Assembly (NCBI GenBank): GCA_003614735.1
Contig: KZ992597.1
Span: forward strand, 1-27,270
Direction: 5' to 3'
Length of the DNA stretch: 27,270 nucleotides
From: Thamnocephalis sphaerospora
Lineage: Eukaryota > Zoopagomycota > Zoopagomycetes > Zoopagales > Sigmoideomycetaceae
Of this stretch, positions 3,744-27,270 are shown piece by piece. The notes under the pieces were generated by a model. It saw only the letters and a program-made list of their open reading frames with translations, was not told where the DNA came from and made no database searches. The translations under genes were made by a program, and so were the position numbers. Each line of letters opens with the position of its first letter. Position 1 is the first letter of the stretch.

Positions 3744-4617
3744 TGCACAGCAGGACCAGGCACGAATTGCCGAGATTCGCGCTCAGCTGGAAGAGCTTGG
3801 CGGCTTGGAAGCTTACCAGGCTGCAAGTGCCAAGGGTGCCAGCACAATACGCGGCGGCGATACCAGTCGCTGGCTTATCAAAACGATCATGACGCTAAAG
3901 CTGCGTCCGACGGTAAGCAACTGCGCAACCATCAAGCATACGCGCGCCGGCTGACGTGCTCAAGATGTAGTCTGGCACAGAGAAGCTGCGCCTGCTGGAT
4001 GTTGGAGCACTCGCTGGCGACAACTACCGAAAGGAGCGTGCCTGGATTGCCGATGATGCTGTCGATTTGAACCCGCGCGAGGCCAGCATACAACGCGGCG
4101 ATTTTCTCCTTATGCCGGCTCCGGCTACATCCGCAGCCCGTTATGACATTGTGTGCCTGTCACTTGTCGTGAACTTTGTTGGCGACATTAAGCAGCGCGG
4201 TAAGTGATGACGACGACAATACCGACTCGTGTTGCCAGACTAACATGCGCTGGCTTGATCCAAGGCGCGATGCTACGGCGTGTTACAGAGTTTCTCCGAC
4301 CTGATGGCGCTGGTCTCTTCTACCTCGTATTGCCGCTGCCATGCGTGACCAATTCACGCTATCTCGACCACGATCACCTTGTAGCGATCGTTGCCGCGAC
4401 TGGTCTGGGCACACTACTGAAACATCATCACTCGACGCGACTGGCTTACTATCTTTTTCAGTTAGATGAGGATGCGCGGGCACTGATGAATCAAGCTGAT
4501 GGTAGCAGCACTACTGCAAAGAAGGCTAGCGCGGGAAGGAAGCGGTCATTGGCGTTCCCCAAAAGGGAGGTTCGATCTGGCGCTCATCGAAACAACTTTT
4601 GCATTGTGCTCGAGTAG
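3586..4617 (+). CDS. BMT2: 25S rRNA adenine-N1 methyltransferase (Bmt2)
   Basis: This is a SAM-dependent methyltransferase; yeast Bmt2 makes an m1A in 25S rRNA in the nucleolus, and the animal relative is SAMTOR. Exons are 3586-3912, 3971-4199 and 4265-4617, giving 302 residues, close to yeast Bmt2. The lysine/arginine-rich N-terminus (MPPMRKRRVKQP) precedes the family helix QLIRRYHTLNKEL and the GGLEAYQAAS block. The SAM-binding motif I, LRLLDVGALAGDN, starts near residue 115. CLSLVVNFV, the LVLPLPCVTNSRYL block and the terminal RNNFCIVL are all family signatures. Both introns have CTGAC or CTAAC branch sites. The start codon lies inside the end of the aquaporin fragment's frame, so its promoter must be in or upstream of that fragment. 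The 3' end converges with GDA1, 86 bp away. Confidence 0.92.
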
Positions 4618-4703: not shown

Positions 4704-6341
4704 CTAGTCAAGCTCGCGCACAGAGCAGTATTGTCCCTCGTCCAGCACCGCAATGGCCGCACCCACACACCAGCCTGTCTCGTAGCCCTGTAGCTTCTTG
4801 GCCATATGTACGCGCCGGTCGTCCGGGATCTCGTAGCCATCACGCAGCAGACTGTAGATGAACGTCATGTCCAGACAGTAGCTGGGGTTTTTGTTGAATC
4901 GCCGCGCCAGATCCTCGGCTCCCTTGACACTTTCAAACCAGGCATAGTCACCGCGGCATACGTGCTCCGCTGCCTCGCGGACATCGCCTAGCAAAAAGTC
5001 TTGGCCAAATCCAAGCGGTGACAGCCGGTCGTAGAAGTAGGAGAACACGTAAATGTCACCGTGGTCAAAGGTGTGCTGTAGGCTTGGCTGGTAGATGCCA
5101 TCAAATGCGCAGGGCCGCACCGGACACTTGCCCGACTTGTCGAACAGATGCGCACGTACCACTTCACGGCACCGCTCCAGGCCATCTGCGCCGCCAGCAA
5201 GTTCCACTTTGTCGTTCTTTCCAGCATCGATCAGCGCAGCACCCACCAGCTTAGAGTCTGTCGTGATCGTTTCGTGGTGGCCTTGCGAAAGGCACGGATG
5301 GACTAGTGCGCCATTGGGCTGCGCTAGATGGCCGTCCTGGTGCCAGCGGTCCACCACCTGCTGCTTAATACGACGGCGCGCTTCCATTAAACCATAGCCT
5401 AGATAGCTGTGCTGGTAAAGCATGTAGTGGAAGCCACCAAACTGCAAATCATACTCGTGCTCGCCTGGCGCCATGACATGGCCGACTGGCAGTGCTGGCT
5501 CAAACACAATCTGCGTGGAACCGCCGCCCAAATCAAAGACACCGGCCGTCTGCTTGCGTTCGCCGGCACCCAGATTCTCGAGCAGATAGTTGACGGTAAT
5601 CCACGCATAAACGCCCTCCTCCTTGCCGTCCATGATGACGACGCCGTCCTTCTTCACGACCGGGAACGGATACGCCGACGTGAGCCGCGCGCGCACATGC
5701 TCCAGAATAATGTCGCCCTTGCCAGCACTGAGAAGTCGTAGACCGGCTGTTGCCTTCACTACAATCGGCGTGCAGTGATGCTGCGATGGCGGCACGTTTG
5801 CGAGCGCCACGTCCAGCAGCGGGTCCAAGCTGTGTGCTGCAGCCTCAGGATCATCCGGATATGCCGACAGACCAGGCTTGATGTGATGGAACACCTCATG
5901 TTCCAGCTCTGGCTGCTCGTGGCAGTGGTTGAAGCGGTACACGTGGATTCGCGAACCAGTACTGCCAGCGTCCACCACCAAAACATACTGAACCAATGGT
6001 TTTTCCGGGTATGGCTGTGAACAGCGCGTAGAAGTCAACCCGGCTGCGCTAGCTGCCGGTACAAACGAGCGGCGGCGGTGCGCCATACAGCAGTATTAGT
6101 CAAGCAGGCTACCGTGGCAGCGCAGATGCAGCTGCATTCACCCACTCTTGCGCACGCCAGCGTCTGTACTCCAGCGCCAGGCGGCTATCAAGGACCAGCT
6201 GGCGGCAAAAATCACCAGCACCAGCGCTGCCAGACGCAGAGGCCGTCCAAGACGACGCCAGCACATGGAGGCGCGCGCCCATAGTGAGAGGCCCTGCTTG
6301 TGCTTTGGGTATGCCTCGGCAAAGACGTCGCGCGAGGTCAT
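4704..6341 (-). CDS. GDA1: Guanosine diphosphatase (GDA1/CD39 NTPase)
   Basis: In the Golgi lumen Gda1 hydrolyses GDP from GDP-mannose to GMP, which drives the GDP-mannose/GMP antiporter used in mannosylation. Two exons, about 6341-6142 and 6048-4704, give 514 residues (yeast Gda1 has 518). Exon 1 supplies the type II topology: a short cytosolic tail and a transmembrane segment LRLAALVLVIFAASWSLIAA (about residues 35-54). Exon 2 carries all five apyrase regions: DAGSTGSR (ACR1, about 93-100), KATAGLRLL (ACR2, 165), GKEEGVYAWITVNYLL (ACR3, 208), GVFDLGGGSTQIVFEP (ACR4, 236) and GYETGWCVGAA (ACR5, near 488). The intron has a CTAAT branch site. Two phase-compatible donor/acceptor pairs differ by a few residues at the junction. 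The gene looks intact. Confidence 0.93.
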
Positions 6342-6575: not shown

Positions 6576-9500
6576 CTACGGAATGCGATTGCAAATCATT
6601 GCCAAGTAGGCACGTCGAAGGTGTGGCGGGAGTTTTCCAAGAATCTGCTGTAGGTGATTCTGCTCGGCCGGCGAGAGAAAATTGCCCAACGTCAGTTCGC
6701 CCGACGATGGCGAGGACAGCGGATATGCCTGCTGCTGGTGATGATGGTAGTGATGCTGATGAGGCATCGGCATCGGCATCTGGGTCGGTGCTGGTTGCAG
6801 TGCTGGTTGCAGTGCTGGCTGCAGTGCTGGCTGTTGGGCTAATGGCGGCGGTGCCATTGAGTGCGTCGACGGGTATGCCCCATGATCGTGCCCATTGTGT
6901 CCCATCTGCTGCCAGCCTGATGTATTTTGGTGCGGCGGTGATGGAGGCACAGGCAGAGGTGGTGCTGGATGCGTCGAAGCTGCATTGTTGGCTTGCGGCT
7001 GCCGCGTTGGTGGCGGGGGCTCGCTAGTCATCGGTTCATCGGGCAGCGGTGGTGGAAGAGGCGCACCCAATGAGCTGGAGCCCCACGAGCTCTGGCGAGC
7101 GTCATAGGTGGATGCGTTGGGTAGAGGCACACCCAGCGGACCTCTATACTCTTTGCTAGGCGCAGTATCTCGCGTCTGTTTGGCAAGACATGTCAGCCAC
7201 TTTGTTCAGGCCATTACAAGTGTGCGCCGTCAGCTTACCCATGCTTCGTTGCGGTGCTTGAGCCACTCGGACTGGATACTTTCGCCAAAGAAGCCCCGCT
7301 CCTTGCTTTCTTTAAGCTCACGCACTGCATGCCCGACAATTGCATACGTTTTTGCCGGACTTGCAACAAGATCCGCTACGCGCTGCTTGATCTCGGCCAA
7401 GTTTTCCGGGGTAACGCGCTATGCGACGTTCAAGCGCGCCAAAATGTTAGCTACTGGCACCAGACAGCTGGTAACGGACCACATACCGCGTCTACTTGTG
7501 CCTGCTGGGCCACCTTCCTAACCGTAGCTTCACAATTGTAGGCAAGTATCTTGCCCAAAAGGCCACTGCGAGTGTCATCAATGAGAGCACTGCGTGGAAC
7601 GACCTCACCATTGCGGCGGTGATAATTGGTCGAGATGACATTATATGCCCTTCTAATTGCCGTAAGGCGCGAAAGTTCTTTTAGGAACTCCTCGCCGTGA
7701 GTATCGGCCAGGTAGCCTATAGATCCGCTACTTTCTATAGGCGTGCTGTTGGTCACCACTGGTGCAGCCACGTTGGTACTGCCGTCCACTTGACCACTTC
7801 TGAAAATAAGCACCATTATTAGTACGCCATACTAGTCTGCTGCGTAACAGGCATGTACTTACGGAAGGATAAGTCGTGGAGCGGGCCTCTTCAACTGTAG
7901 GGCAGTGTCGATTATTGGATCAATTAAAGACGTGAGTAGGTGGACTAGCGCATACGGCTCGTCGGCTACGCACCATATTGTTGTCTTTGACGCGTGTTAC
8001 GGCCTTTCGAAACTCTTCGCCAAAGATATGATACTGTACAGCACCCTTGATACCGTTGGCCGTTTCCATCATTGCAGTGATGAAATTGTCGACATCGTTC
8101 CAAATGCCCTGCATATCGGTAATCACCTGACTTTGCAGCTGCTCGCGATTGATCGACTGCGCAGGGGCCTATTAGCAAAGCGATGCACATACCATGCGTT
8201 CAATCTGCGCAGCAGCTTACCGCATTGACTTTGACCTTTTGCAAGCAAAGTGGAAAAGAGTTTGTCACCAGTTTCAGCGCCTCGTTTGCCAGCTGGCTAT
8301 TGGTAATGATATTGACAAAGATAGAAAACAAATTGCAGTGCTCATGCTTCTGATAGAAGCGAGAGACTACATAATGCCGGTATGCAAAAAGAATGATTGC
8401 TCGCGATGTCTTGGCAAGATCATCTTGTGGCACAAATCGCGCAAACAGCTTGGGCGGCACGTTTGCCATATGGGCAGGTAACCGAAAGTTTTCATCGCCG
8501 CGTGCAGGCGCGTTGCCGCCCGCACGCGTAAGAAGTAGATTGACCCTGTAGTGTGAAGACGATAAGCCACCTGTGATCATTGCGATGCTCACTACTGCGG
8601 CTTACTTTAGCCTGTCACGGCTAACGGCTTCTTCAAACGACATTGGCGCACGCGGCATTCCCTGGCACAACATGTCGCACAGTTAGCCGCCGGCAATGCG
8701 GATGCAAGTGCGCGCTGCGCTCACCAAATGCTCATTCTTGCGAGTGATTTCCGGCAATAGCCATTCAGAGGAGAGTCCAAATCCCGGCTGTCGTGGCCAG
8801 CGCTCAGCAGGCACCTTTGTGCAAAAGGCAAGCCTTAGTTGAGACGCTACCGCAGCCGACACAGCTCAGACTTGCGACTCGGCTACCTACCGATTGCCGC
8901 TGCGTCCTGGCAGCTTGTAGAGCCTCGGCGAGACGCTGCGCAAAATCTTTCTCGATTGCATCGCCAGAGTCGCGCAGGCTGCTGGCTATGAGCCGGAAAA
9001 AGATCTCTCGGCAGCGAATGCGTCCTACAATCTCTCTCTCCAGCTCGCGGATGTTACTGCATGGCTGGCCGCTAGGACTGACCGTCTGTGCCGGAACCGC
9101 CGCGTCAGCAGAATAGCACAGCACGTCCCTGCTAGCACTTCTTACCTGCCGCAGACCCAACTGATCCAGCGCAGACGTGATGCGCTTTTCCATAGACTTC
9201 ATCATCAGGCCCGCAATGGTGCCGTCTGAGAAATGATCTACTATCACTCGCTGATGTACCAGGGTGCGATGGCAAGAGTAGTAATTTTTGCCTATTACAT
9301 GCATTGCCATACTGGCAAAGACCACGTATATGATTTCAGCAAACGGAAACGGTGCCGTTTCTTCTTCCGGATGCTGAGCCGGAGTGGATGACCAGTCAGC
9401 AACCGGAGCTGATCCTGTCGATGGATGTATTGCGGCAATGTTAGCAGCCCGCAAGCATCAAATTCGCTGCATGACGTGCTGGTTGGCAGCCAGCCAGCCA

Positions 9501-9580
9501 GAAAGACGACGCGCACAAACTCAACACAACATACCGGTAGCCGGGTCTCCGCCGTTGTGAGAAGCGTCTTCGTTGTGCAT
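6576..9580 (-). CDS. Gene A: three-module member of the alpha-beta family, 11 exons
   Basis: The family is not recognised. Exons: 9580-9535, 9414-9146, 9085-8891, 8814-8725, 8661-8606, 8545-8221, 8156-7974, 7894-7863, 7799-7487, 7418-7239 and 7175-6576, all phase-compatible, giving 762 residues. It carries three alpha-beta pairs: alpha1 43-105 with beta1 106-170; alpha2 265-327 with beta2 328-388; alpha3 441-503 with beta3 504-563. Each alpha ends at a phase-0 intron and each beta is a single 0-0 exon. Alpha1 and alpha3 keep the family tyrosine at module position 18 and glycine at 38; alpha2 has Phe and Ser there. The C-terminal exon is P/Q/H-rich (four LQPA units, MPMPMP, HQHHYHHHQQQ) and ends with the family motif FLSPAEQNHLQQILGKLPPH. 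Ten introns carry mostly CTAAC/CTGAC/CTAAT branch sites. The start was chosen because the 46-nt first exon joins in phase 1. The intron at 8605-8546 lacks a good branch site, so two adjacent genes cannot be fully excluded. Confidence 0.75.
6789..6833 (-). repeat. 12-bp tandem repeat encoding LQPA in gene A
   Basis: Just under four copies of a 12-bp unit (plus strand TGCTGGTTGCAG or TGCTGGCTGCAG) encode LQPA repeats in the disordered C-terminal exon of gene A. Confidence 0.85.
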
Positions 9581-9955
9581 GGCGAGCTAATCCAGCCTGC
9601 TTTGACGGCGTCGATGGATGCTTGCGTAGTCGAGACGCAAAGGCGATTGTAGAGAGAGGTGGCCCTTGCAGCAGGTGGTGGCGACAGAGAATAGCAGTGG
9701 CAGGCTGGTCGAGCGCTAGGCCAGACGAGCCGGGTGAACAAAGGTGGCTGGACAAGGCAGCGGGGATGATGGCGAGAAGATGGCGTGCATAAGCGTAGAG
9801 CGGCAGCGCCGGCCTTACGCGTCCGTGATAGCAACAATGGGAAAGCGACTGGTGAATACAACTGATGTGCCATATGCCACCTCTTTGTTTTTCGCCTACG
9901 CAGCAGAATGCGCGATCCGCGTGCCGCCTACCAACCTCAGCGCTACACAGTGAAC
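9581..9955. promoter_or_regulatory. Bidirectional promoter region between genes A and B
   Basis: Genes A (-) and B (+) start head to head about 375 bp apart, so this interval must hold both promoters. An upstream in-frame ATG for gene B lies at 9908. No specific element was identified. Long open frames across it on the minus strand have no recognisable product. Confidence 0.5.
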
Positions 9956-12224
9956 ATGTCAAATTCGCGGTATGATCGCGCGGCCAGCTATGCGCACGAA
10001 CCGCGGCGGCGCAGTCGCTCGCCGTCGCGCCTCTCGCGGCATCCATCACCCTTGGACCAGGGCCACGTCCACCGCAGCCCACCACAGCATACACCCCGCT
10101 ACGCTTATACTGCCCCGGCGGGGAATGCACAAAGAGCCGGCGGCGCTTCTCGCCGCGACATGATATACTATGGCTATACGGATACACAGCGCCACGGTCA
10201 CAGCCAGCCAGGCACGCACGCTACGCTGTCCGACAGCGGCGCAGCTCATGCCGCAAACAATTGGCAGACACCGTCCACGGCTACATCATTTTCGGTCACT
10301 ATCGGAAACAGTGCGGCTACTGCCCGCATGGCTAGTGCGTCAGACGCTACCTTTAATGCTACAGGGGATTCACACCAAAGCACCAGCACGCCAGCGCAGG
10401 GGCAGGAAAGTGCAGTGTTAACGGTGGGGAACGCAAAGGATCCTGCATATATGCATCAGGCTGCTGGCGGGCCGTCAGGCGGTACAGAGCCAGATCTAGA
10501 CGAGGTTGCTCGAAAGAGCGTCTCTCGAATGCTTGTCCAGCTCTGGTTGACCAAATACCAGAGCAAGCAGGGGAAACTTGTGACGCCCAAGGAAGTGGCG
10601 GTCGACATGCTCAATGGAACAATTGCTCGACTGCTTTTGCATCATATTAGCGCAAAACTGAAGCGCTGTCTATCGATGATGCCGGAAATGCAGGTGATTA
10701 GAGGCTATTGCACCACGTTGTGTGATGAACGATCCGCGCTAACCGAGCGGCGCGGATGTACAAAGCAATACACATTCTCTCCGCAGCAGATGACACGCAT
10801 AGTAGGACATGCCACCACATTGCTGGAAAACCGAGGCACTTTTCTGGTGCTAGCGCATGGGGCGGCCAGTGGCCCAAGTCCGTCAAACACCGACAAAAAC
10901 CGCCTGGAACGCTTACGCCAAGCATATTACGAGGCATATACCATGTTGATGGTATGTGCGACGATGCCGTCGATAATGTTCGCCAATGTTTATGGTATAC
11001 TTTTTGCAGAGCGGTGCTGCTCCCGATAGCACCTGGCCCAAGAGCGCGCCCATACAGCAGAGCGAAGCGCTAGATGCTCAGGAAACTAAGGCAAGTACAA
11101 AGCCGCTGCCACAGCAGCAGTCGCAATTGCAAGAATCGACTCAAGCGCAAACGCAGGCACAGCAAACTGAGACAACAACAAGCTCTAAGTCCACGAACCT
11201 TACCACGACGACTGCCGCCGCCGCATCAGCTCAGTCCCAGGCACCCATCTATGGGCAGGACGTTGCAAATAAGCAAACTGCAGCGTCCATTGCGGAAGCC
11301 ACAACGGTACGCGGCCTGGTGATCTACGAAAGTGCATGTCTGAAGACGTGCTGTACAGTTGAATACTAATCATGGGCATGTGCTGTTAGGCACAGACAAG
11401 CGCACCGCTCAGCCAAGCAAGCAAATGCGAGAAAACAGATGACGTGCTATCCTTGCAGACCAACGGTAATACTGTGGAAACATCCGGGCTCTATGTGGCA
11501 GGCGGATCACAGGTAAATGTTCAAGCACGTCCGAGTATTCGTATAGTAGCAGCAGCAGAAAAGGAGAAGCAGGCGGCAGCGGAACGACAGTCAACCATGG
11601 AAAGACAGGTGGCCAAAAACGGCGTAACGGCAGAAAAGCAAGCAGCGGCGGAAAAACAGGCAATAGTACGACAAAGTACCGCTATAGATGTACCCGCATC
11701 GAATAGCTCAGTGCCTCATAAAAGATACAGCAGTGAAATAGATGAGGCCGACAATCCCTTTGAGCAGGATGCGGCTGCACTGCGTGAAATTATTTTCTCA
11801 AGCGCAACCACTCCACGAACCAACACATGCGCCGCGCAAGGAGCCGATGACGACGACAGGTAAGCATAAGCAAAAGGCAGGCGCTTTGATCACTAGGTGC
11901 TCGATGATGGCCGTCGCTTCTGCACGCTCCCCAGGCGTGCTCGCGCTTCCATGACGCCGGTTTAACGGATCATGTAGCAGCGTAGGAAACCGCCAGCAGA
12001 GCTCCGATTGCTACATGCACGCTGTTGACGCGCGTGCAACAGCGACCGATGGTGAAGTACGTGCGCCAACACCGGAACATACGTCTGAAATAGCAGCACC
12101 CGCCGTCAGACTGGTGGATGCCTACTTGAACCAGATTGAGCAAAAGCACATTGCCTACCTGATACGCAAAGTGCCGCTCCATCTTAGACCTGGGCTGCTG
12201 GATCCGTTCTTGAAAAAGGAGTAG
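9956..12224 (+). CDS. Gene B: alpha-beta family protein with SR-like N-terminus
   Basis: The family is not recognised. Exons 9956-10693, 10766-10951, 11010-11306, 11390-11859 and 11981-12224 give 644 residues; ATG 9908 is in frame and would add 16. The N-terminus is R/S-rich (RRRSRSPSRLSRHPSP). Alpha is 184-246 (Tyr201, Gly221), beta 247-308 on a 0-0 exon. Then follow a Q/T/S-rich linker starting near a lone Trp (PDSTWPKS) and a segment of EKQAAAEK-type repeats likely to form a helix or coiled coil. The C-terminal motif is VDAYLNQIEQKHIAYLIRKV then PLHLRPGLL. Intron 1 (72 nt) is in frame and without a stop; its removal is inferred from the conserved family intron position and a CTAAC branch site. 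The last acceptor is a TAGCAG tandem site. Confidence 0.82.
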
Positions 12225-12490
12225 AGCTCGATCCAAAGCTTATGCATACGGGTGCACGTGGTCGGGCGGTGTGGTGCTTGCGCATTGTATTATGTTTGCT
12301 TTTACGGGCACATTCGACTGGCGGAGCGGTCGGTCAATTTAATACAGCTTTCTCGTAGATGAACCCGCACACGTTTTCCTTCTCCACTCGCACGCACGCA
12401 CATCTCACTGCACCCTGCCGCATCTTGCCTGCCCACATACAGTATCCGCCACAGCCACCAGCGTGCTGCGACGATAGGATACTCGCAGCT
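12225..12490. promoter_or_regulatory. Intergenic region and CT-rich leader before gene C
   Basis: This spacer between genes B and C contains a CT-rich stretch (about 12370-12430) like the leaders of PEX7 and the kinase gene here. The gene C frame is open back to an ATG at 12359, but the CT-rich leader makes ATG 12491 the more likely start. Confidence 0.45.
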
Positions 12491-14317
12491 ATGGATAATA
12501 CAAACGGCCAGACGGCCTCCAACGCGGATCAGCCCAGCACAGCACCGTCGAGCAATCAGAGTGGGCCGGTGACGACGACACCGCAAACCGCCGCTGCAGC
12601 TGACGCCACCACAGCAGCAGCGACTAGCATAGCACCAGCAGCAGCGAAAACGCAACCAGCATTGCCGCCGAAGGAAGGCAATGCCAACGCGAATCAAAAC
12701 ACAGAAACAAAAGCGCAGCCGGTGACGGAGCAACGGCCAACGCGAGCAAACGGCAAAAAGCGCCCACGGTCGCCCATAAGAGCACCTACGCCGCCAAAGA
12801 TAGCCCAAGTTGTCACGCCTATAGTACCAAAAGTGTACTCGTCCCATGAACGTCCAAGACACGAGTCGCCGCGACGATCGCGAGAGCGCTCTTACTCGCC
12901 ACGTCGATCGCCGCGCTCGGCCGGCGATCGACGTGACCATTATCCGCCTCGGTCTTCATCGTATCGATACACGGAGAATCGTGCGGACGACGACTATAGC
13001 CGGTCACTTCGTCGATCATCTCGATCCCCGTCGCCTTCATCACATTACTCACGGTATCGGGGACACAGAGATTCTGACGGAGATGAGCGTGCTCGATACA
13101 TGTCACACGCCGCAGAAGACAGTCGGGGCGCTCGTTCACAGTCTGAGCGTAGTCTGCGTTATCCCGTGACACACGCGAGTGCGGTAGTTACCGGGTCCTC
13201 GTTGACAAAGACACTAGCAGAAAAGGTCTGCCGCAAGATGCTATACACCATATTTACCAAACAGTACTTTCGTAGAAACTCACAGCCCATTCCTGCAGAG
13301 GAAATTGCTCAGGACTTTCTGAGTGGCGTGATTGCCGAGCGGTTGCAGTCGACGTTTAGCGCACGAGTCAAGTATGCCCTGAGCGTACTGGGCCAGTCAG
13401 AGGTGGGTGGGTTGAAATCGCTCAAATTTGATAGCCCGTCAGCCTACACGTTGAAAAGTAGTTACCAACATGGGAATACGTTGCTTTGCATAGTATGTGC
13501 AAGACGGGCGGCAGTTTAGCGAGCTGGAACAGCTAGTCCGGAAGATCATTCAGCAGCAGTCGACCTTTTATCTTATTTTCCAGGATGTTGCCGCGTCTTT
13601 TTCTCCAGAGCGCGGACCCTGCCTTGCTGGTAGGGTAAAACGCGCGTTCAAGATTACGCGAGAGAGGACGGTACGCGCACTTTACTGTCACGCTCGTGCG
13701 TTGCCGGCCCAGCTGGTTTACTGACCACGGGCAATCGCCAGGATGCTGAACGAAAGGCCGAAGCAGCACGGGCTAGTCGTGACAAAAAGGATGCATCCAA
13801 GGTAAGCCAGCAAATAGTTACGGAAAAATTGCCGTGTGCGGCATGTGTTGGGCTTTAGCTGTAAAGCCATCGTTTGTCGTTATATCACTAATTTGCTTGG
13901 GCATAATTCAAATGTCTTTTTCAACATGTAGAATAATACATCGGAAAAGCAGCCGCCACAAGAAGATGCTGCACACAGCGCCAAAACGAATGGGCAGGCT
14001 ATGCCGCCACAAAAGTCGCAGAAGCAGCAGCAACAGCAGCAACAGCCAGTGCCGTCAAACAATACGCCAAACAATCCAGCACCTACGCCACAGACTCTCC
14101 AAACGGAGCCACCTAGTCAGCCACAGGAGTCGAGTCAACAAGAATCTGTACAAAACATGGAATGGCAGCTAATCCAGCGAGTCAGGGAGGAGCTTAATGT
14201 ACGAGAACAGAAACTGAAGGACGAGATGCTGCTTATGCGGCAGCAGATGCAGGATTACAACGAACTGTTGCGTCGGCGCAATGAGACGCCGCCGTCACCG
14301 CAACAGCAACCAAAACC

Positions 14318-14349
<32 letters not shown>

Positions 14350-14768
14350 CAAAACCGCAACAGCAACAGCAACAGCAACAACAAAATGCGAGCGGGTGTC
14401 ATACTGCGCCTGTTGACCACAAGCAGCTAGCTGATCGGATGGCGCGAGAGCAGGCAACATGGTTGAGCAAGTAAGTATCATCGATATCCAGCTACTGCGC
14501 CCCTACTAATAATAACCTGTGACCGCTTACTAGCAGTGCCGCGCAACCAGTCCTTATGGAAGTATCACTGCCACCAAGTGTGGTGTCCTGGCCGACGGCC
14601 GTATCCTCGCCTGTACAGCTGTCAGCACACCCTGCTACGCCAAGTATTGACGAGGACAGTGTCATTGCCGAGTACATCACCAGCGCAGAGCGAGGCCAGC
14701 TGAAGTTTCTGCTGGAAAAGGTACCGCCACATCTTCGCCGCCGAATGATTGCCCGCTGGCTATCGTAG
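12491..14768 (+). CDS. Gene C: alpha-beta family protein with RS domain and poly-Q
   Basis: The family is not recognised. Exons 12491-13402, 13494-13670, 13742-13801, 13932-14470 and 14534-14768 give 640 residues. An Ala/Thr-rich start is followed by a basic patch (NGKKRPRSPIR, a possible nuclear signal) and a long R/S/Y/D region resembling the RS domains of splicing factors (about residues 115-225). Alpha is 242-304 (LAEKVCRKML..., Tyr259, Gly279) and beta 305-363 on a 0-0 exon. A 20-codon charged exon and a poly-Q exon with a helix rich in E, R and Q (near VREELNVREQKLKDEM) follow. The C-terminal motif is AEYITSAERGQLKFLLEKVP then PHLRRRMIARWLS, about 605-640. The last acceptor is TAGCAG, as in gene B, and either use keeps frame. 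The RS region suggests a nuclear RNA-related role, by inference only. Confidence 0.83.
14299..14385 (+). repeat. CAA/CAG poly-Q tract with duplicated unit in gene C
   Basis: Two copies of a unit of about 39 bp, each beginning CAACAGCAACCAAAACCG and continuing as CAA/CAG codons, encode PKP-separated glutamine runs. The mixed CAA/CAG codons and exact duplication point to replication slippage. Confidence 0.85.
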
Positions 14769-15269
14769 CAGTGCTGCGTTTCGCACATCAACGCATATGT
14801 TGCTCTCTTTGCCCATGTAAATCTCATGTTTTACTGCTATGCTACGCTGCAGGCAGCATAGACTGGCCGGTCCATGCCGCTGAGCGTCTTGATCATGGCA
14901 GACCATCCTGAGCGTGCTGCATCTTGCATCCCATTGACACCTCAATGAAAATGGCCGCCTACGGCAGAAGGCTAAACTGCACGCATGCCAAATACTCGCC
15001 TATTTTCCTTTGTCTTTCTGCCATAACACTTCTCATCTGCAGCGACCATTCATCACGCAGCATCACAGACTGACTCTTCCTCTCGTGAACAACCGTGCCA
15101 CTTGTCGAGTCTCCGTCATCTCCGAGCAGGCTACAGTCGAATACGCGTATTATTAACCAGTGTACTTTGCAAAGAACGCCACGCCATCCCGGCGAAGCGT
15201 ACTACGTAAGCATTTTGGATCTGGCTCGCACAAAGCCAGTAAGCTACAGACACAAAACGCAACGAAAGC
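14769..15269. promoter_or_regulatory. Intergenic region between genes C and D
   Basis: This contains the 3' end of gene C and the likely promoter and leader of gene D. A CT-rich tract lies at about 15001-15090. No further gene or RNA was recognised. Confidence 0.45.
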
Positions 15270-17324
15270 ATGGCTGCAACGCGTGGACGAGGCCGCGGCC
15301 GTGGTACCGGTGCTGGCTATGCTGACGGCGGCTCAGTGACCACGTATGCCGTCAATCTGTCGAGCAACCGCCGTCCGCCGCCGCCTACTGCAAAGACGCG
15401 CGATCATTCCGACTATGGCCCACGTCTGTCGGCCGGCCACGACGACGGCTTTGGTCCGCGCCCATGGGAGGGTAAACAGCCGGGCGACTCGCAGCCAGTA
15501 CACGACGATTTCAACCACTTGTCCTCGGTGATGCCGGGACAGCTGCTGTACTTTCTGCTTAAGACCGGCTATAAAAGCTGGGATGGCGAGCCGGTGCCGG
15601 TCAACACGCTGGCTGAGCATATCGCGACCGGCCAGATGGCTACCAGGCTACTCCACAACACCAAAGGAAGAATCCGCTACGGCTTTGGTCAGATGGACCT
15701 TTCCCGCGTACGTGCAAGCTGAATTTACCGCCTCTGTAGCATCGCTTCGATGAGTGTAACTGATCTCTGTGCCATGCGGTCCCAGCGGGTCGGTATCGAG
15801 GAACAGAACAGACTGGAGGAATCGGTAACAAAGCAGCTCAAGGACCCAGTAAGATTTGCTGCCATTGTACAAGAGACAATCAAGAACCTGCAAAACACCG
15901 ATCCGGGGCTTTCCAAGCGACTAGAGACTGCTGCCGAGACGGCAGAACGCATGCAACAGGTACCTCGGGTGCCGCGATAGCATGCAACCGTACGCTGATG
16001 CAGAACAACCGCGATGCTGATTGCGTCTGCTGGCTGTGCGTGTAATAGGATAATCCTGCTTGGATAAGTAGCTGGCCAACGGGAGCTACTGTGGAGCGCA
16101 AGCAGCCTGCGCTATCGCGGCCGGTGGTCAAGCCCAGCTCTCCACCACCTCACGGTCACACCATGACGGACAGCGCGGTATGCAGTTTGCTCTGCTAATC
16201 TGTTCTCAGACTCCAACTTTGGCAGCTAACGATGGCCATTACATTCTGCTGGCTTGCCGGCTCATTGCAGAGCGAGTTTATGCGCACTAATGCCGATCTA
16301 GTTGGCGACTCAAACTGGGGAACCCCGGATCCGACAAGCATGGTGACCGACAACGAGGACATCAAGTCCGGGGGCGGCTGGGGCTCACCGCCTGCTACCT
16401 CTGTCAACGACAGCTGGGGCTCGCCCAGTTCAAAGTAGGCCACTGAGCAAATGCGGATTCGTAGTGGGCCTGCGGTAGGCGGAACAGACGGTGTATCTGC
16501 TAACCTCCTGCTACCCATGGGCACTGTGCTTATGCCACGCTCCGATGCCCGCGCGCAGCCCGCAGCCTCCTGCCCCAGTATCCTTCTTATCTTCATCAAA
16601 CAAGGCAAACACTAGCGGCATCGGCGCAGGTAATGGCAGCTCTAGTGGCTTTTCGGTTGTCGGTGCTGCGCGAGCACACAAGCGCACCGAAAGCACCTCG
16701 TCCAAGGCAGCACCGCACACGGAATTCGGTGCATCGGCGGCTAGCACTCCACCTGTAATGCCAGAGTCGCAGCCGCGGCCGCCATCGCCGCAGCCGCAGC
16801 CGCAGCCGCAGCCGCAGCCGCAGCCACCGTCTCAGCCACAACTGCAGTTGCAGTCACAACATCAGCCGCAGCAGTATCAGCCGCAGCAGTATCAACACCA
16901 GTCGTATCAGCAGCCGCAGTCGGCTATGCCGATTGCCGCTGATCCTGCAATTATTACCCAGGTGTCGCACACTGCGCCCACGCAGTTGCCGCCGATGCCC
17001 TTGTCGATCAACGCAGCAGTGGCCACGCCTGGCATGGCCACTCCTGCACTATCTCATGTCATGACGCCCCCTTTAAATAGCGCGTCACACGTGGCAGCGA
17101 TATCGTCTGCGCTGCCGGGCGTTCCTGTTAGTAGCATGTACGGATACATATCGCCCGTGCCTACTTCGGCCTCTACATCTACTGGCGGCGCTATGCCGAT
17201 GAACCTGGACGAGACGGAGCTTGTGAATGCGTATCTGTCACCATTGGAGCGCGAGCACCTGGAATTCCTAGTAGGAAAGATTCCCAAGCATCTACGCACT
17301 GCACTTTTGAATCCGTGGATGTAG
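15270..17324 (+). CDS. Gene D: alpha-beta family protein with RG start and WG motifs
   Basis: The family is not recognised. Exons 15270-15707, 15786-15959, 16049-16177, 16271-16434 and 16559-17324 give 556 residues. It starts MAATRGRGRGRGTGAG, an RG-type stretch. Alpha is 84-146 (Tyr101, Gly121) and beta 147-204 on a 0-0 exon. The next exon begins DNPAWISSWPTG. Exon 4 holds three WG motifs in a G/S/P/T/D context (Trp 263, 284 and 296: NWGTPDP, GGWGSPP, SWGSPSS), the kind of sequence found in Argonaute-binding hooks. The long last exon is S/A-rich and then P/Q-rich (QPQPQPQPQP). It ends with NAYLSPLEREHLEFLVGKIP then KHLRTALLNPWM, the best match to the family motif. Acceptors were chosen by branch site (CTGAT, CTAAC) and phase; the first intron uses GTACGT. 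Confidence 0.83.
16790..16830 (+). repeat. CAGCCG hexamer repeat (Pro-Gln) in gene D
   Basis: About six CAGCCG units encode alternating Pro and Gln; irregular CAG-rich codons follow downstream to about 16920. It lies within the disordered last exon. Confidence 0.85.
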
Positions 17325-19696
17325 AAAAGTGTGCAAGATGACCAACATCCGTCGCTGGATGAGCTCTAACAGCAAGATTGCGCCGTACTGTATGCACCGT
17401 ACTGTCACCAGACAGTCACTACGAACGCAGTACCCGACTATTATATACCTTACGACGGTGCCTTGACCGCTGCTAAAAGCGGCCAAGACACCGCAGCATG
17501 ATCAATTGAACGTAGTCATTGGCGTAGTGATATGCAACCATGTCACTACTGTCAGAGTTATCGCCTGTCCGAACCATTCCCACCCCTCGCTCCTGCAGAA
17601 GAATGTGCGTCTGTGCTCTGCTCAAGACGCCAAGGACCGAGCCGACCACAAGCAGCCAAGCACGTCCGGCCATCCTGGAATAAATATGAAGTTTTAGGCA
17701 CTTTGCCAGCTGCATTACCTGGTGCCGCCGGACGCGGATGATTGCGGGAGCCGAGGGATCACGTTTACCAGACGCTGGTAACCCGTGATTCCGCAGCAGC
17801 GCGCGATTCGTGCGCTACGATGCAAACTACACATCGCTGCATACGGGCACGCCTATGCACTGGCTTTGCGACGCACACGCAAGCAGACAGCAACGTTGCG
17901 CTGCCATTTCCGCATTTAGCGTCTGTGGCGTGGCCGAGTTTGCCGGTGACAAGGACACGCCATTGCGGTGCTGTGTTACGTGGCAGATGTGTAGTGGCTC
18001 ACAATGACGTAGAAGACGAGTGGGTTCTAGACGGCCAGCACCTGACTGGCGACGTGGCTAGCAACTGCAGCGGCGGCAGCGGCAGCAGCAGCAGTCATCG
18101 CTGCACGCACGTTGGTTAGCCCGTTTGCCAAGCGGCCGTGGTATCTTCGAGCCGTTGGCTGCAGTCGACGCATATACGCACATACACACACGCAGCTGCA
18201 AGGCCAAGCTGCACGGGTCGGCAGTGTCCGGAAAGCACTGGCCTCTATTTGCACGGCGTCTTGCGCTAGCATATTCTCGCGCGAGCCGCTGGTGACGTTT
18301 CCGCATGTGTGCTTGCATCGCTATGCACTTGCCGCCTCGCAAGGACGACTCGTGTACCCGCCGTGTCCGCCGCGGCAGCCATTGTCTGTGTCCGTGTCGG
18401 TACCTGCACCTGCGCCCATCTGCGTGCGCCGGCATGCGCGTGCATCCAGGGTGATGAACGAATGACAAAGAGACGCGGCGGGCATGCACACGTCCGTTGG
18501 TGGCGCGCCAGCACGCGGCGGTTGCCTTTCCCGTGCCTCTTGTTCTTTATCCGCTGACCGCTGGAGAGTGGTGCATGCGTGGTTCGGTTGCATGCGCTGC
18601 GCAGTGCTGGTGCTATCGTCGCCAGTCTTGCGACGGTGTGGCCGCAGGCTGGGCGGGCAGACGTGGGTGGGTGAGTGGGTATAGGCGTACATCCTTATCG
18701 TTTGCACATGCGCATGTGTGTGTGTGTGTGTGTGGACCATCAGGCGAGTGTACCTGATCTTTTGTCGGATGGTAGTGCGCACGCATGCCCAAACGGTGGT
18801 GATGATGATGATGATGATGCTGCTGCTGGCGGCCACAACGGCGGCAACGGCATATCTGTACGGCCTATGGCTCCTTTGCGCCTCGTTGGCCAGTGGCGTT
18901 GCGTAGACGTATGACGCTGTGCAACACGGGTTAGGTGCAACCATGGTCTCCTTCCTATCACCCGCTGGTGGCTCTCCGGACGGCGCTTGCGCCCCTTTCT
19001 TCAAGCGCATGCTACTGGCCTCGTCTGTCCTTGGCCATCCACGCGGCTCCCTTACACAGCACACTCCCCTTTCCGCCGGTCCTTCGCCGTCCTCGTCTCT
19101 ACTCGCTCTTTTACCACCGTCGTTTCTCTCTCGCTAAACGCTCCTTCTCTCTCGGCTCTCGCTTTCAGACACTATTTTCACCGTCTTTCGTTTCTCGTCA
19201 TCCGGCATAGACATCGCCGAATATTCGCTGGCGCCTCGTACACGTGCGAACGCTATTCCTCGCTAGCCAAGGCTGCATTCCGCTCCTCCATTCCCTTGCT
19301 CATCTCCTGCCAGGTATACATTGTACCGCGCCACGCAGCTTGCTCTGCCGACTAGTGCGCGGCCCGTTTCACCTGCGTCTCATTCCCGCTCCCTATAACG
19401 GCACTCCTCCGTCTACGTTCTTTTGTTTGTGCGTCCCTCCTCCTCTTCCTCCTCCTACTCCTTGCCCAGCGCCTTAAACGCCTTGATCCTATTCCCCGGC
19501 TACTACGATAAGCTCGCGTGCTCCTCCCTGCCCTGGTTGCCTCGTGCTTGGCCTCTAGCTCGCGCAACACGGTTCCATAGACGAAGCGGAGTTTTAACCA
19601 CGCTCGAGTGTCACAGCCGCCACGGCATCTTTCGCTCTCCACTCTGCGGCCCGTGCGAACGTGCCACACCGTATCACCAACTGACAGTGTGTTGCC
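17325..19696. other. 2.4-kb gene-poor interval upstream of gene E
   Basis: I see no convincing gene here. Open frames exist on both strands (the longest is 247 codons, minus, 19064-18321), but they run through simple repeats and resemble no protein. A GT microsatellite lies at 18715-18734 and GAT then CTG repeats at about 18801-18828. From about 18940 to 19660 the plus strand is strongly CT-rich, which fits a promoter and long 5' leader for gene E. A consensus-like CAG|GTATAC at about 19312 could be the donor of a leader intron. An AATAAA at about 17679 could serve a transcript from the left. Confidence 0.5.
18715..18734. repeat. GT dinucleotide microsatellite
   Basis: About ten GT units occur in the gene-poor interval upstream of gene E. 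On the other strand this gives a run of His-Thr codons, which helps keep spurious frames open. Confidence 0.85.
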
Positions 19697-21453
19697 ATGG
19701 CTTACCCTGCCGGTGCGAACATGAATACGCCGATCCGTGTCTGGTCAGAGTACGGTATCACCACTCTGCCCAAGGGCCAGGGCAAGCAGCGTTATAACGG
19801 CAACCATCAGCGTCCCCGCCCGCCAACGGTGCATAGCAACCTTGGTTACGCCATGCACCTGCCCACCGGTCACCCTCAGCATCAGCATCAGCATGCCCAC
19901 TATCAGCACCCGCACCCGTCGCAGTCACGCCACACTCACGCGCACCCCCAGCATCCGGCCCAGTTCCACGCGCCAACTTCGGCGGGACGCTTTTCGCAGC
20001 ACCAGCGTCAGCAGCAGCACCACCATCATCACCAGCAGCAGCAGCAGCAGTATGCGTACGTGCAGCAGGCGCCACACAATCTATTCCAGTCGCTAGCCCA
20101 CCAGACACCGCAGCAGCGTCAGTCTGCGCAGGCCATGCAGCAACAGCAGCACCAGCACCAGCAGCACCATCATCACCATCACCAGCAGCAGACGCAGCAA
20201 CAGGCCGCGCAGCAGCAACAGCAACAGCAGCAACAGCAGCAGCAGCAGCAGCATGCACATGCCGGACAGTCCTACAGCTACCAGGTGCCGCCGCGCATTG
20301 AAGATGAGCCGGAGGCGCACCCGCAGGTGGCAGGCGACTTGGCACATAAGGCATTCAAGCAGATGCTGCTGCATCTGATTCTCACCGGATACAAGTCGCG
20401 CAGCGGTCGCCCTACCACGCCCGAGGAGATTGCACATGACTTGTCCAACGGCGAGATGGCTGAGAAGCTGCGTCGTGAGACGGAGATGAAAATGATGGGA
20501 GCGTTCAAGATGCTCAAGCTGGACCAGGTAAAGGCGACCGCTACCGTGTATGCGTCCGGTGATCCTGTCACTAACGCACATCATCCCTCGTTGACAGGTG
20601 GTCCGCGGTAATCTCAAGTCGGATGTGCTGCATCGCGTCGAGTCGATGATCAACAACCATGCGCTCCTGCATCACAATGTCTACGTGACGGCAGTGGCGC
20701 TTGGCAAGAAAGATGACAAGCTGTTTGCCAAGCGCATCATGGAGGCGTGGAACATGGCCGACGAGATGCTCAAAGTAAGTGTGCGCGCTGGACATGCGGG
20801 CCAAGCGAGACGCTCTAGACATCCGGGCTGACCCTTTTTGCGGCCAATCCAGCAATCTTCCGCAGCACAGCGCATGGTACGCACTGCTTCTTGGGCCGCG
20901 GCCACCTCTGGCGAGCCAGTTCAGCGCAGCCAATCGGCCTCGCCCCCTCGCATGGTCACGTTCCTCCAGCGCGCTGACACACCGCAGAGCTCCAGCACGG
21001 CGGTATCTCCGGAAGCCCCCAGCCTGCACCGGTAAGCTCCGCCTGGTGTGCTCGCTTGTCCCGTGACGGTGACGCTGACCCCATTTCCCTTTTGCGTCTT
21101 CGCTTTTCCATGGCAGCGGGTCCAGCGAGGCAGATTCAACGAGCGACGAAGCGTCCACGCATGCCCACAATGCGGAAACGATGGTGGCGCCCGTTACCGT
21201 GGCCTCGCAGACGGCCGCGCCCAAAGCAAGCACCGACGACGAAGCCGCCACTCCCGTAAATTATCTGCTTCTGAACGCCTATCTCAACTCGGTGGAGCGG
21301 GAGCACCTGATCTATCTGATCTCCAAGGTGCCCGATCACCTGCATTCTGTGCTGCGCGAGTGGGTGTTTGCGCCGCAGTCGACGCCGGTAAAGATGCAGT
21401 CGTCGCAGCCGCAGCAGCCACTGGTGGCGCAGGTGCAACAGGCGCAGCAGTAG
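19697..21453 (+). CDS. Gene E: alpha-beta family protein with His/Gln-rich N-terminus
   Basis: The family is not recognised; this is the clearest copy. Exons 19697-20527, 20598-20774, 20853-21031 and 21117-21453 give 507 residues. The first 210 or so residues are extremely H/Q-rich (HQHQHAHYQHPHPSQ, long poly-Q). Alpha is 215-277 (LAHKAFKQMLLHLILTGYKS..., Tyr232, Gly252). Beta is 278-336 on a 0-0 exon of exactly 59 codons, the same length as in gene C. The third exon is S/A/Q-rich with a lone Trp (RTASWAAATSG). The C-terminal motif NAYLNSVEREHLIYLISKVP then DHLHSVLREW (about 446-480) is followed by a 25-residue Q-rich tail that the other paralogs lack. Introns have CTAAC or CTGAC branch sites. 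The leader is CT-rich. The Q/H-rich start suggests condensate- or prion-like behaviour, by inference. Confidence 0.87.
20209..20253 (+). repeat. CAG/CAA poly-Q tract in gene E
   Basis: A run of about 14-15 CAG/CAA codons just upstream of the alpha module, the longest of several CAG/CAC-rich stretches between about 19875 and 20260. Confidence 0.85.
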
Positions 21454-22262: not shown

Positions 22263-23119
22263 TTAACACGGAGCATCGCCTGACACGGCTGGACGATCAT
22301 ACTCTGTCGACGATGCCTCCAAGCAGTCTGATGCTGCCATGCTCACTGCTTCTACTTGCGACTGCGGCGGCGGTGTCAGTGGCGGCGACAAGTGCGGCGG
22401 TGGCAGCGGCGGTGGTGTTATGCCCGTGGGCACGAGCGTGGTGCCCACCACCTTGTAGGCAGGCGATGGTGCCTCGCCAGATATTACCGACGAAGGTGGC
22501 GACACCATTAGCACGCTCTGCGAAGCCGGTGGCGGTGGGGGCGGCGAGCCACGTGTAGGCCGAGGCACGGGCGGAGCCGCGCTAGAAGCAGCGGCCATGG
22601 CCCATAGCCCATCGCGTTTCCATCCGTGTACAATCACGTTGACCTAGCCACGCAAAAGACCGGCATTAGCTAATGCGATTGCGGCAGCTCACCCGACTTG
22701 GCCCGTACGCATCATCGCCCACTTACCACATTGCTGAGCGGTACAGGCCGGCTTAGCTTGCGCTGTCCTAGCACCAGCTGGTCGTAGATATTGTCGTAGT
22801 TTTCCGGCACAAACTTGCGCAGCTGTCGGTGGTGTTCCAGCTGCGTTGCTGTTGGTACCCTTTGCGCAGGAAGGTCGGTGTTTACCATGTCACAGCCGAA
22901 TGCTTGCAAGCGCCGATTCTCCGCCTCTTCCTCGTCGTCCTCGTACCGGTGTTCAAAGTGTCTTGTCCAGTGGCGTCGCTGGGTTTCCCAGTGCTGCACT
23001 CCGGGGACCGCGGCAGCTGGTGTACCTGGCTGCCATGCGCTCGTGCCACTCGATGCCGGCTCGTCGCCTGCACATGGCGAAGGCGACTCGTCCGCCTTGG
23101 TCGCCCGTTGTTGTGTCAT
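22263..23119 (-). CDS. Gag1-like clamp domain protein (formerly DUF4050)
   Basis: Two exons, 23119-22727 and 22643-22263 (intron GTAAGT...GCTAG, phase 0), give 257 residues. The fungal clamp domain spans roughly residues 40-145: WETQRRHWT, then the NYDNIYDQLVLGQRKLSRPV block, then across the splice PLSNVVNVIVHGWKRDGLWA. This W...YDxxYxxLVxGxxxLxxPxxLxxxxxVxxxGWKxDGLW pattern is typical of the family (Pfam Gag1-like clamp). Its biochemical role is poorly known; from memory, S. pombe Gag1 is reported to link to protein phosphatase/TORC1-related control. The remaining C-terminal half is a disordered Pro/Ser-rich tail (SPPPPPPASQ). ATG 23119 was chosen over the upstream His/Thr-repeat frame, which derives from a GT-rich stretch. 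It is divergent from PEX7. Confidence 0.8.
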
Positions 23120-23778
23120 TCCGTGTGCGTGTGTGTGTGCGCCCACCCACACGTGCGCGCAATAATAGAAGGAATCAGCAATAGCGCGTCCTGAGTTGGC
23201 AGGGTAACGACGAACGGTGGTAATTCTAGCAGGCGTAGCGTCGTCGTGGGTGATGAAGGCGGTGTTTGTGGGCAGAATGAGAAACAGGCAGGCCGACCGT
23301 TTTTACTTGCCTACTAAAGTCGCCTTGCTCAGAGCGGAGTTGCACTGCTACTGGTTAGCCGCGGGCCAGACGCTAACCACCATCACCATCACCAAACGAG
23401 AGACAAGGCGAAGACGGCGTGGGCATCAGGGCCCAGTAGACTGTTTGCCACGAACGGCAGTGGAGTGCATGGCACACGCACCAATCGACAGCATCGCGAG
23501 TGTGCTTGCAACCGCGTGTGCCGGCAGCACTCGTGGCCAGGCGCATGCCCTGTCGGGTGGTGCGCCAGCATCATCGTCGTCGTCGGGCAAGCACAATACG
23601 TCAGTGGCGTCGATCGGCAAGGTTGCAGTGCTCGTGTTGCATGTGACGCGGCTCAGGTCGTCTCCACTCGAGCCATCTTGCCGCTCCGACTTGGTTTTCG
23701 CGCCCACCGGCCGGCCTGCTACGCCTCCCGGTAACACGCACCTCTTCTGCCCCCTCTTCTTCGTCATTGTCGTGGAGC
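23120..23778. promoter_or_regulatory. Divergent promoter region, Gag1-like gene / PEX7
   Basis: The 660-bp interval separates two start codons facing away from each other. A GT-rich tract lies near 23125-23140 and a CT-rich tract (about 23740-23770) immediately precedes the PEX7 start. The 196-codon plus-strand frame crossing it shows no recognisable domain and overlaps the PEX7 start, so I treat it as chance. Confidence 0.5.
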
Positions 23779-25078
23779 ATGTTTCGCTTTCAGACACAGG
23801 GCTTTAACGGCTATTCGGTGCGTGTGCGGCGGGCCAAGACGCGTGTGGGACGCGATCAGCGCGCGTGTCGGCTAACGCGTCTCCCCTGCTGCACGCCCAG
23901 GTCAAGTTCAGTCCATTCTTTGAGGACCGTATTGCCTGCGCGTCGGCCGCCAACTTTGGACTGGTGGGCAACGGTCGGCTGTGGATTCTCCGCAGTGGGG
24001 CGGGCCCTCATGGCGTGGATGCAGAGAAGCTGTGAGTGCTGCGAGCAGACGGCATAGAGGCGTTTGGCCATGCTCACTGTTCTGCTATCGCCGCTGCTGC
24101 CGTTTAGCTATGACACGCAGGATGGCCTTTATGATGTAGCCTGGAGTGAACAGCACGAACATCAGCTGGTGACGGGTAGCGGCGATGGCTCTGTAAAGCT
24201 TTGGGACGTGACGCTATCGGTAGGCGTGCGCGCGCTATGCGACCGGGCAGAGACCAGCACTGGACTAACTTGGCGGTCGGTGTATGCTACCCGGCAGGAA
24301 TTCCCCATCCAAAACTGGAGCGAGCATACACGCGAGGTGTATTCGGTCAACTGGAACCTTATTCGCAAGGATACATTTCTGACGGCATCCTGGGACCTCA
24401 CGGTTAAATGGGTACGTAGCTACGACAGCATGAAGATTAGCAGCAGCAACAGTAGTAGTGATGGTAGCGCATACACGCAGGCTAACGAGACACTGTATGC
24501 GCATATAGTGGACACCAGAGCGGCCACAGTCGCTGGCTACATTTGCAGGCCATCAGCACTGCGTGTATGAGGCGTCCTGGTCGCCACATGAGCCGGATCT
24601 GTTTGCCAGCGCATGCGGTGATCGCATCATTCGGCTGTGGGACGCGCGCCAGCCAGGTCGTCCAACCATGACGATTCATGGCCACCAGGGCGAAGTGCTT
24701 TCGCTAGACTGGAACAAATACCAGCCGTACACGCTGGCCAGCGGTTCGGTGGACAAGACAGTGCGCGTCTGGGATGCGCGCCGGCCAGATCGTGAACTCT
24801 CGGCTGCCACGGGCCACGAGTATGCCGTGCGGCGAGTCCGCTTTTCGCCACACCAAGCGCAGCTGCTAGCCAGCGCCTCCTACGACATGACCATGCGTAT
24901 CTGGGACATGGGCATTGCAGGCGGCATTGCCAAGCCGGTGGAGACCTACGGCGCACACACCGAGTTTGTTCTTGGCGTCGACTGGAACCTGTACCATGAG
25001 GGCGAGCTGGCCACCTGCGCCTGGGACGAGCAGGTGCACATTGTGCGGCCCGCACTGTTGGCGTCAGGACAGCGTTGA
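23779..25078 (+). CDS. PEX7: Peroxin 7, PTS2 import receptor (WD40)
   Basis: This WD40 beta-propeller receptor brings PTS2-bearing enzymes to the peroxisome. Exons 23779-23817, 23901-24031, 24108-24219, 24298-24411 and 24509-25078 give 321 residues, the usual length. The start MFRFQTQGFNGYS joins VKFSPFFEDRIACASAANFG, an exact PEX7-type N-terminus. WD repeats follow: VTGSGDGSVKLWD, LTASWDLTVKWW, ASACGDRIIRLWD, ASGSVDKTVRVWD and ASASYDMTMRIWD, with GAHTEFVLGVDWNLYHEGEL before the last blade. Exon 5 restores WTPERPQSLATFAGHQ, which supports the acceptor at 24509. Intron 3 (24220-24297, 78 nt) is in frame with no stop but interrupts the propeller, so it must be spliced out. It is intact. Confidence 0.94.
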
Positions 25079-26872: not shown

Positions 26873-26899
26873 GTAAGGGCTGCCGTCGATACCGACATC

Positions 26900-27234: not shown

Positions 27235-27270
27235 CTGCTGCTGCATGTTAGCACTGCGCAAGCAACCGTG

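Follow-up and report, generated by a model that had tools for sequence, protein, structure and literature searches.

The window, a 27,270-nucleotide stretch of the Thamnocephalis sphaerospora genome (contig KZ992597.1 of assembly GCA_003614735.1), carries five adjoining intact genes, of which A to D lie on the plus strand and E on the minus strand, and whose 25 predicted introns are all of the GT-AG type. Gene A (19697–21453, +) has four exons (19697–20527, 20598–20774, 20853–21031 and 21117–21453) encoding 507 amino acids, laid out as a Q/H-rich arm, a predicted six-helix domain, a linker and a C-terminal motif. Gene B (15270–17324, +; 556 amino acids) has five exons (15270–15707, 15786–15959, 16049–16177, 16271–16434 and 16559–17324), the last of which has at least two frame-keeping acceptors (16559 and 16616), the former being used in our model. 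Genes C (12491–14768, +; exons 12491–13402, 13494–13670, 13742–13801, 13932–14470 and 14534–14768; 640 amino acids) and D (9908–12224, +; exons 9908–10693, 10766–10951, 11010–11306, 11390–11859 and 11978–12224; 661 amino acids) also have five exons each; a further in-frame ATG is present inside the first exon of D at position 9956. Gene E (6576–9580, -) has 11 exons and encodes 762 amino acids comprising three alpha-beta domains in a row (E1 to E3) and one C-terminal motif.

The five predicted genes look genuine. With codon preference trained on three neighbouring stretches, the proposed frame beats both shifted frames in all 14 alpha and beta segments and is positive in 13 of them; the beta segment of gene D is slightly negative (-0.08), yet above both of its shifted frames.

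A conserved two-exon segment in seven copies

A preliminary description of the locus had proposed that every copy begins with alpha, an ungapped stretch of 63 residues whose last codon directly abuts a phase-0 intron, and continues with a second segment, beta, on an exon of its own with phase 0 at both ends. The gene models bear this out in all seven copies: the alpha/beta junctions fall where they had been placed (20527/20598, 15707/15786, 13402/13494, 10693/10766, 9146/9085, 8221/8156 and 7487/7418), the beta exons span 58–65 codons, and the 14 alpha/beta and beta-end junctions are all predicted to be in phase 0.

The alpha segments map to 20339–20527 in gene A, 15519–15707 in B, 13214–13402 in C and 10505–10693 in D (all +), and to 9146–9334, 8221–8409 and 7487–7675 in domains E1, E2 and E3 of gene E (-). 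As had been described, six copies have Tyr at position 18, where E2 has Phe; Gly stands at position 38 in six of seven, and positions 40 and 41 are respectively hydrophobic and Ala/Gly throughout. When each alpha was left out in turn and an ungapped profile of the other six was scored against 11,295 stop-free 63-residue windows from the six frames, the missing copy ranked first of 11,295 in all seven cases, with z of 7.8–9.9 for A, B, C, D, E1 and E3; E2, the most diverged copy, in which little of the alpha signature is left, had a z of 4.0 and beat its runner-up by just one score unit. Leave-one-out HMMs recovered six of the seven alphas, those of A, B, C, D and E1 at E ≤ 2.4e-8 (2e-13 for A, 7e-10 for C, 2e-11 for D, 2e-8 for E1) and that of E3 at 6e-4; alpha E2, which is placed by exon structure, was not among the matches listed.

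The beta segments occupy 20598–20774 (A), 15786–15959 (B), 13494–13670 (C) and 10766–10951 (D) on the plus strand and 8891–9085 (E1), 7974–8156 (E2) and 7239–7418 (E3) on the minus strand, each placed by the gene model and codon preference and that of A also by structure prediction. Here leave-one-out HMMs matched A at E 0.012, over about the last 20 residues, and B weakly at 0.89, the other five copies not being among the matches listed. Because these HMMs mostly miss them, it is chiefly their location, their length and the phase of the introns that identify the beta segments and alpha E2.

Predicted fold and comparison with known families

The preliminary description had treated alpha and beta as two modules, a division that structure prediction does not support. 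AlphaFold2 was run on SYNPS1DRAFT_29190 (hereafter P0001), a 561-residue hypothetical protein of Syncephalis pseudoplumigaleata related to gene A. It returned one domain at residues 211–350 with a block-mean pLDDT of about 88, most residues outside it falling below 50. In this model alpha (helices 1–3) and beta (helices 4–6) are predicted to pack into one compact domain of six helices, which the intron divides between helices 3 and 4.

The earlier view that the family lacks a named domain is upheld by the Pfam-A search, in which full-length A, B, C and D, E in two pieces, and P0001 gave no match at the curated cut-off, the best sub-threshold matches being at E 0.017 and 0.12. Four NCBIfam families each matched one of seven members in a scattered manner, with a best E of 0.0084, and the one family whose curated cut-off was given fell short of it. 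KIX, TAFH and ARID are helical coactivator interaction domains, KIX and TAFH being the small helical domains of Q-rich coactivators, in which disordered Q-rich arms surround a helical domain much as they do here. The six-helix domain could be a strongly diverged form of such a known interaction domain (KIX-, TAFH- or ARID-like, among others), and the genes ordinary transcription co-regulators, which we regard as possible if rather unlikely; neither a sequence match nor a clear structural match to KIX or TAFH was found, and a limited structural comparison of the predicted domain gave no match above helical-bundle background.

C-terminal motif

Each of the five genes ends in a conserved motif of about 36 residues with the consensus YL..xE..HL..LI.KVP.HLR. 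Leave-one-out HMMs, whose training sets all included the P0001 motif, recovered all five at E ≤ 1.4e-7, at 21262–21369 (A, +; E 1.5e-12), 17214–17321 (B, +; 8e-15), 14655–14765 (C, +; 8e-10), 12108–12212 (D, +; 3e-10) and 6591–6698 (E, -; 1e-7). The residues E, K, P, H and L are invariant in six of six motifs, including those of C, D and E, and the helices predicted in the P0001 motif have low pLDDT (block means of 43–57). These sequence comparisons show common descent for all five C-terminal motifs and, among the seven domain copies, for six or more. The locus is a gene family rather than a demonstrated system, for which the preliminary description had named it a candidate.

Arms and linkers

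The sequences surrounding the domain differ from gene to gene: Q/H-rich in A; an RG-rich N-terminus, WG repeats and a P/Q-rich linker in B; an R/S-containing N-terminus and a Q-rich linker in C; mixed in D; and P/Q-rich in E, whose N-terminal arm is short. The Q runs of A and C and the H runs of A were matched by at most two of 2,000 shuffles. RG in B was marginal by the same comparison (p 0.06), and R/S dipeptides were not enriched over shuffles in C (p 0.16) or D (p 0.44). SR splicing proteins were considered and rejected for C and D, which have no RRM and no RS/SR excess over shuffles.

One exon of gene B (16271–16434, +), placed by the gene model, encodes by count three Trp-Gly repeats (SNWGTP, GGWGSP and DSWGSP) within 55 residues. 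GW/WG proteins constitute the Argonaute-hook class, and the linker of B resembles them in carrying such repeats in an S/G/P/D context; E contains SSWGSS, and Piwi-domain matches were found on two contigs of the genome. That gene B, and perhaps the whole family, represents a putative Argonaute-hook adaptor of RNA silencing nevertheless appears very unlikely, as shuffling gives the four WG/GW dipeptides of B no better than p 0.03, before any correction for the five genes compared, the two of E give p 0.22, and A, C and D have none.

No signal-peptide-like N-terminus was seen, the highest 19-residue Kyte-Doolittle mean near an N-terminus being 0.16. Residues 38–56 of gene E, in helix 1 of domain E1, average 1.75 over a 19-residue window, above the threshold of about 1.6 for a membrane candidate, which makes the solubility of this protein uncertain.

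Relatives and age of the family

Gene A and P0001 are 78–79% identical over 154 residues and 92% identical in alpha alone. P0001 shares with A the Q/H-rich arms, the alpha-beta domain, a conserved VRTASWAA stretch after it and the C-terminal motif, whereas its arms and linker fail to align. The relative of gene B is P0002, a JGI-sourced hypothetical protein of 147 amino acids, probably from a metagenome, which is 72% identical to B over 74 residues and 79% in alpha. It corresponds to exon 1 of B and stops just past the start of the intron, its frame running into Val (GTN) directly after the same LSR that ends alpha in B; unlike B, it is a single-exon prediction that covers neither beta nor the C-terminus. 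Since gene A and gene B are both more similar to a protein from another source than to one another (30% identity), the expansion is old, in agreement with the first of the two options, ancient or fast-evolving, in the preliminary description. In both relatives the domain is conserved and the arms do not align; conservation of the domain in A and B is consistent with purifying selection.

No relatives of C, D or E were found, these three having been queried only as rows of a joint search. GC3 and codon preference drop from A (0.75 and 0.37) through B (0.63 and 0.17) to C, D and E (0.54–0.56 and -0.02 to 0.16), and alpha E2 is largely eroded, all of which would fit constraint on A and B only, with C, D and E being remnants, or copies that drift rapidly under relaxed selection. 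We consider this improbable, as remnants of such age should have acquired stops and every frame is open across the 25 introns, ten of them in E, while the motifs of C, D and E retain their invariant residues.

Alphas from different genes or domains are only 3–35% identical, and such extreme divergence of paralogues within a tandem cluster might be expected if diversifying selection acted on a locus for recognition or conflict, whether in self/non-self or in host interaction. The strong conservation of the domain in the relatives of A and B is the opposite of diversifying selection there, and the N-termini are not secretion-like, so that this interpretation seems most improbable.

As far as the genome searches reach, the family is confined to one place, as first proposed. 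Neither translated search nor motif pattern revealed further copies elsewhere in the genome, with the proviso that diverged copies would escape, that protein searches missed alphas E1–E3 within the cluster too and that the assembly is possibly incomplete; of the seven motif-pattern matches, two lie outside the cluster, and in these the invariant Glu is missing.

Discussion

Our tentative reading, a real possibility if short of probable, is that the genes form a tandem family of old origin and encode five adaptor, or scaffold, proteins working inside the cell. Each would be built to the same plan: a low-complexity N-terminal arm, then a two-exon six-helix domain (present three times in E), and finally a helical motif at the C-terminus, reached through a disordered linker. 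Helical domain and tail motif alike would self-associate or engage a partner that stays the same, and the differing arms and linkers would supply each paralogue with partners of its own, the assemblies served being most plausibly those of nuclear RNA or transcription. The 25 GT-AG introns, the common alpha and C-terminal motif, the conserved domain and its confident prediction as a single unit, the N-termini unlike signal peptides and the low-complexity arms support this reading, and the lack of any Pfam domain argues against a known catalytic domain. As a counterpoint, the arms may be mere drift in disordered sequence, given the unenriched R/S of C and D and the marginal RG of B; the low pLDDT of the C-terminal motif helices and the hydrophobic window of E also count against it.

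More speculatively, and with a somewhat low likelihood in our estimation, a domain confined to Syncephalis-type fungi may have given rise to a small class of adaptors, nuclear or RNP, in which the core and tail motif were kept and each gene of the tandem locus received a different disordered arm (Q/H, RG plus WG, R/S, P/Q).

Lineage-restricted families are already known, and this locus is a clean single-site case, found in a group of little-known moulds that parasitise moulds: five disordered arms, each different, are combined with the same core domain and the same conserved tail motif, with the gene structure retained although alpha identity between genes is down to 35% or less. The family offers a new-looking domain for structure solution and a natural series in which to probe what disordered arms contribute around a core that has been kept.

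A tandem family of related genes

The five paralogues (genes A-D on the plus strand and gene E, with three domains, on the minus strand; 6576..21453) were modelled by joining exons across GT-AG introns on contig C174 of a 14.46-Mb, 594-contig assembly. They encode proteins of 507 (A), 556 (B), 640 (C), 661 (D) and 762 (E) residues, interrupted by 3, 4, 4, 4 and 10 introns, respectively (58-130 nt; median 76), and none of the five reading frames contains an internal stop. With codon preference trained on three stretches adjoining the genes, the proposed frame beat both shifted frames in all five genes and in all 14 alpha and beta segments, gene D scoring slightly negative (-0.02) though above both alternatives. 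Intron 1 of gene D and intron 3 of gene E end in the unusual acceptor AAG, for the last acceptor of gene B at least one alternative also preserves the frame, and gene D may start at 9908 or 9956.

Evidence for a real family comes from the 63-residue alpha segment (helices 1-3 of a predicted six-helix domain). Each copy was scored, together with all other stop-free 63-residue windows of the six frames, by an ungapped profile built from the remaining six; it came first of 11,295 in seven of seven scans, with z of 7.8-9.9 for six copies and, for alpha E2, a margin of only 1 score unit (z 4.0), bearing out the tandem relationship proposed in the preliminary description. Leave-one-out profile HMMs recovered six of the seven alphas (E 2e-13 to 6e-4) and the C-terminal motif of every gene (five of five; E 8e-15 to 1.4e-7; training sets included the motif of the Syncephalis pseudoplumigaleata protein SYNPS1DRAFT_29190, P0001), but alpha E2 was absent among the matches listed, where only two betas appeared, at E 0.012 (last ~20 residues) and 0.89. 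Since so few betas are recovered, it is their place, length and single 0-0 exon, kept in 7/7 modelled copies as first described, that tie them to the family more than sequence; a weak R...A pattern is common to the beta rows when six are aligned jointly. Five positions of the C-terminal motif (E, K, P, H, L) do not vary among six sequences, P0001 included.

Relatives and age of the family

As a protein query, the alpha-beta segment of gene A retrieved P0001 as sole relative at E<=1 among 146 candidates (79% identical over 154 residues); P0001 also bears the C-terminal motif. Gene B retrieved none at E<=10 among 170 candidates, in a search whose stated length range excluded the 147-residue P0002, and a six-segment alignment, the query in which C, D and E were represented as rows, retrieved only P0002 among the 8,000 candidates scored, the maximum allowed. 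P0002, a JGI-sourced prediction probably of metagenomic origin, matches exon 1 of gene B, with 72% identity over 74 residues and 79% within alpha. Its sequence ends in ..LSRVSCV, so that its frame continues exactly where the gene B intron starts, as an unspliced prediction would. Distant relatives can escape the protein search, which depends on five-residue words in common. Ahrendt et al. (2018, PMC6784888) describe the assemblies of S. pseudoplumigaleata and its relatives P. cylindrospora and T. sphaerospora as single-cell, and their multi-cell co-assemblies as capturing an estimated 73-99% of the genome; on these figures, absence of B-E from such assemblies would prove little. Within the T. 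sphaerospora genome, the cluster was picked up both by translated searches and with a DNA pattern for the C-terminal motif, and no convincing copy appeared outside it. Alphas E1-E3, though inside the cluster, were absent among the matches listed by the translated searches, and equally diverged copies elsewhere would therefore be missed.

Because alpha identity is 92% between A and its relative and 79% between B and its relative vs 30% between A and B, the A/B split predates the splits sampled. The proposal of an ancient or fast-evolving expansion is upheld to that extent; the tree, which has no starred branch and places alphas E1 and E2 on very long branches, settles almost nothing further. 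GC3 and codon bias drop from gene A to genes C-E, which may reflect lower expression or weaker constraint.

Domain content and a proposed adaptor function

As anticipated, no named domain was matched: Pfam searches with full A, B, C and D, and with E in two pieces, yielded no domain. A signal-like N-terminus was not seen; helix 1 of domain E1, with a hydropathy of 1.75 over 19 residues, qualifies as a membrane candidate. What the proteins have in common is a conserved helical domain and a conserved tail motif, and their disordered arms differ from gene to gene. No more than 2 of 2000 shuffles reached the Q and H runs of gene A or the Q runs of gene C; against shuffles, gene B showed marginal RG enrichment (p 0.06) and WG at an uncorrected p of 0.03, and no R/S enrichment was found in C or D. 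The simplest model is that of adaptors whose core domain and tail motif would bind a common partner or one another, the arms supplying gene-specific contacts; the nuclear or RNA setting is a guess from arm composition. Past the domain, in exon 3 of gene A, RMVRTASWAA (20871-20900, plus strand) is matched by RLVRTASWAA in P0001, the rest of the linker not being kept. The common VRTASWAA, which resembles a basophilic kinase site, is a possible control point.

Genomic setting and significance

The cluster neighbours are ordinary genes: Bmt2 25S rRNA methyltransferase (3514-4614, plus; at least two exons), a GDA1/CD39 nucleoside phosphatase (4707-6095, minus; E 4e-99), a Gag1-like clamp domain protein (22715-23302, minus; E 5e-9), a WD40 repeat protein in two ORFs (24058-25075, plus), an adenylate kinase fragment (26507-26842, plus) and, overlapping the latter on the opposite strand, a C2H2/zf-met zinc finger ORF (26669-27247, minus). 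Below cut-off are a diverged cytochrome P450-like ORF (I-helix region; 872-1408, minus; Pfam E 0.065), whose companion ORF (1514-1849, minus) had no match, and a weak match to the major intrinsic protein (aquaporin) family (3075-3407, plus; E 0.0064). Elsewhere in the genome, Piwi-domain matches on two contigs (C239 and C264; E 2e-91 and 5e-90) make Argonaute-type genes and RNA silencing likely.

The suggestion of an undescribed system stands as regards the family, which is real, undescribed as far as our searches reach and apparently lineage-restricted, with a novel-looking domain, but there is no sign of an unusual mechanism. Its interest lies in the biology of a little-known fungal group.
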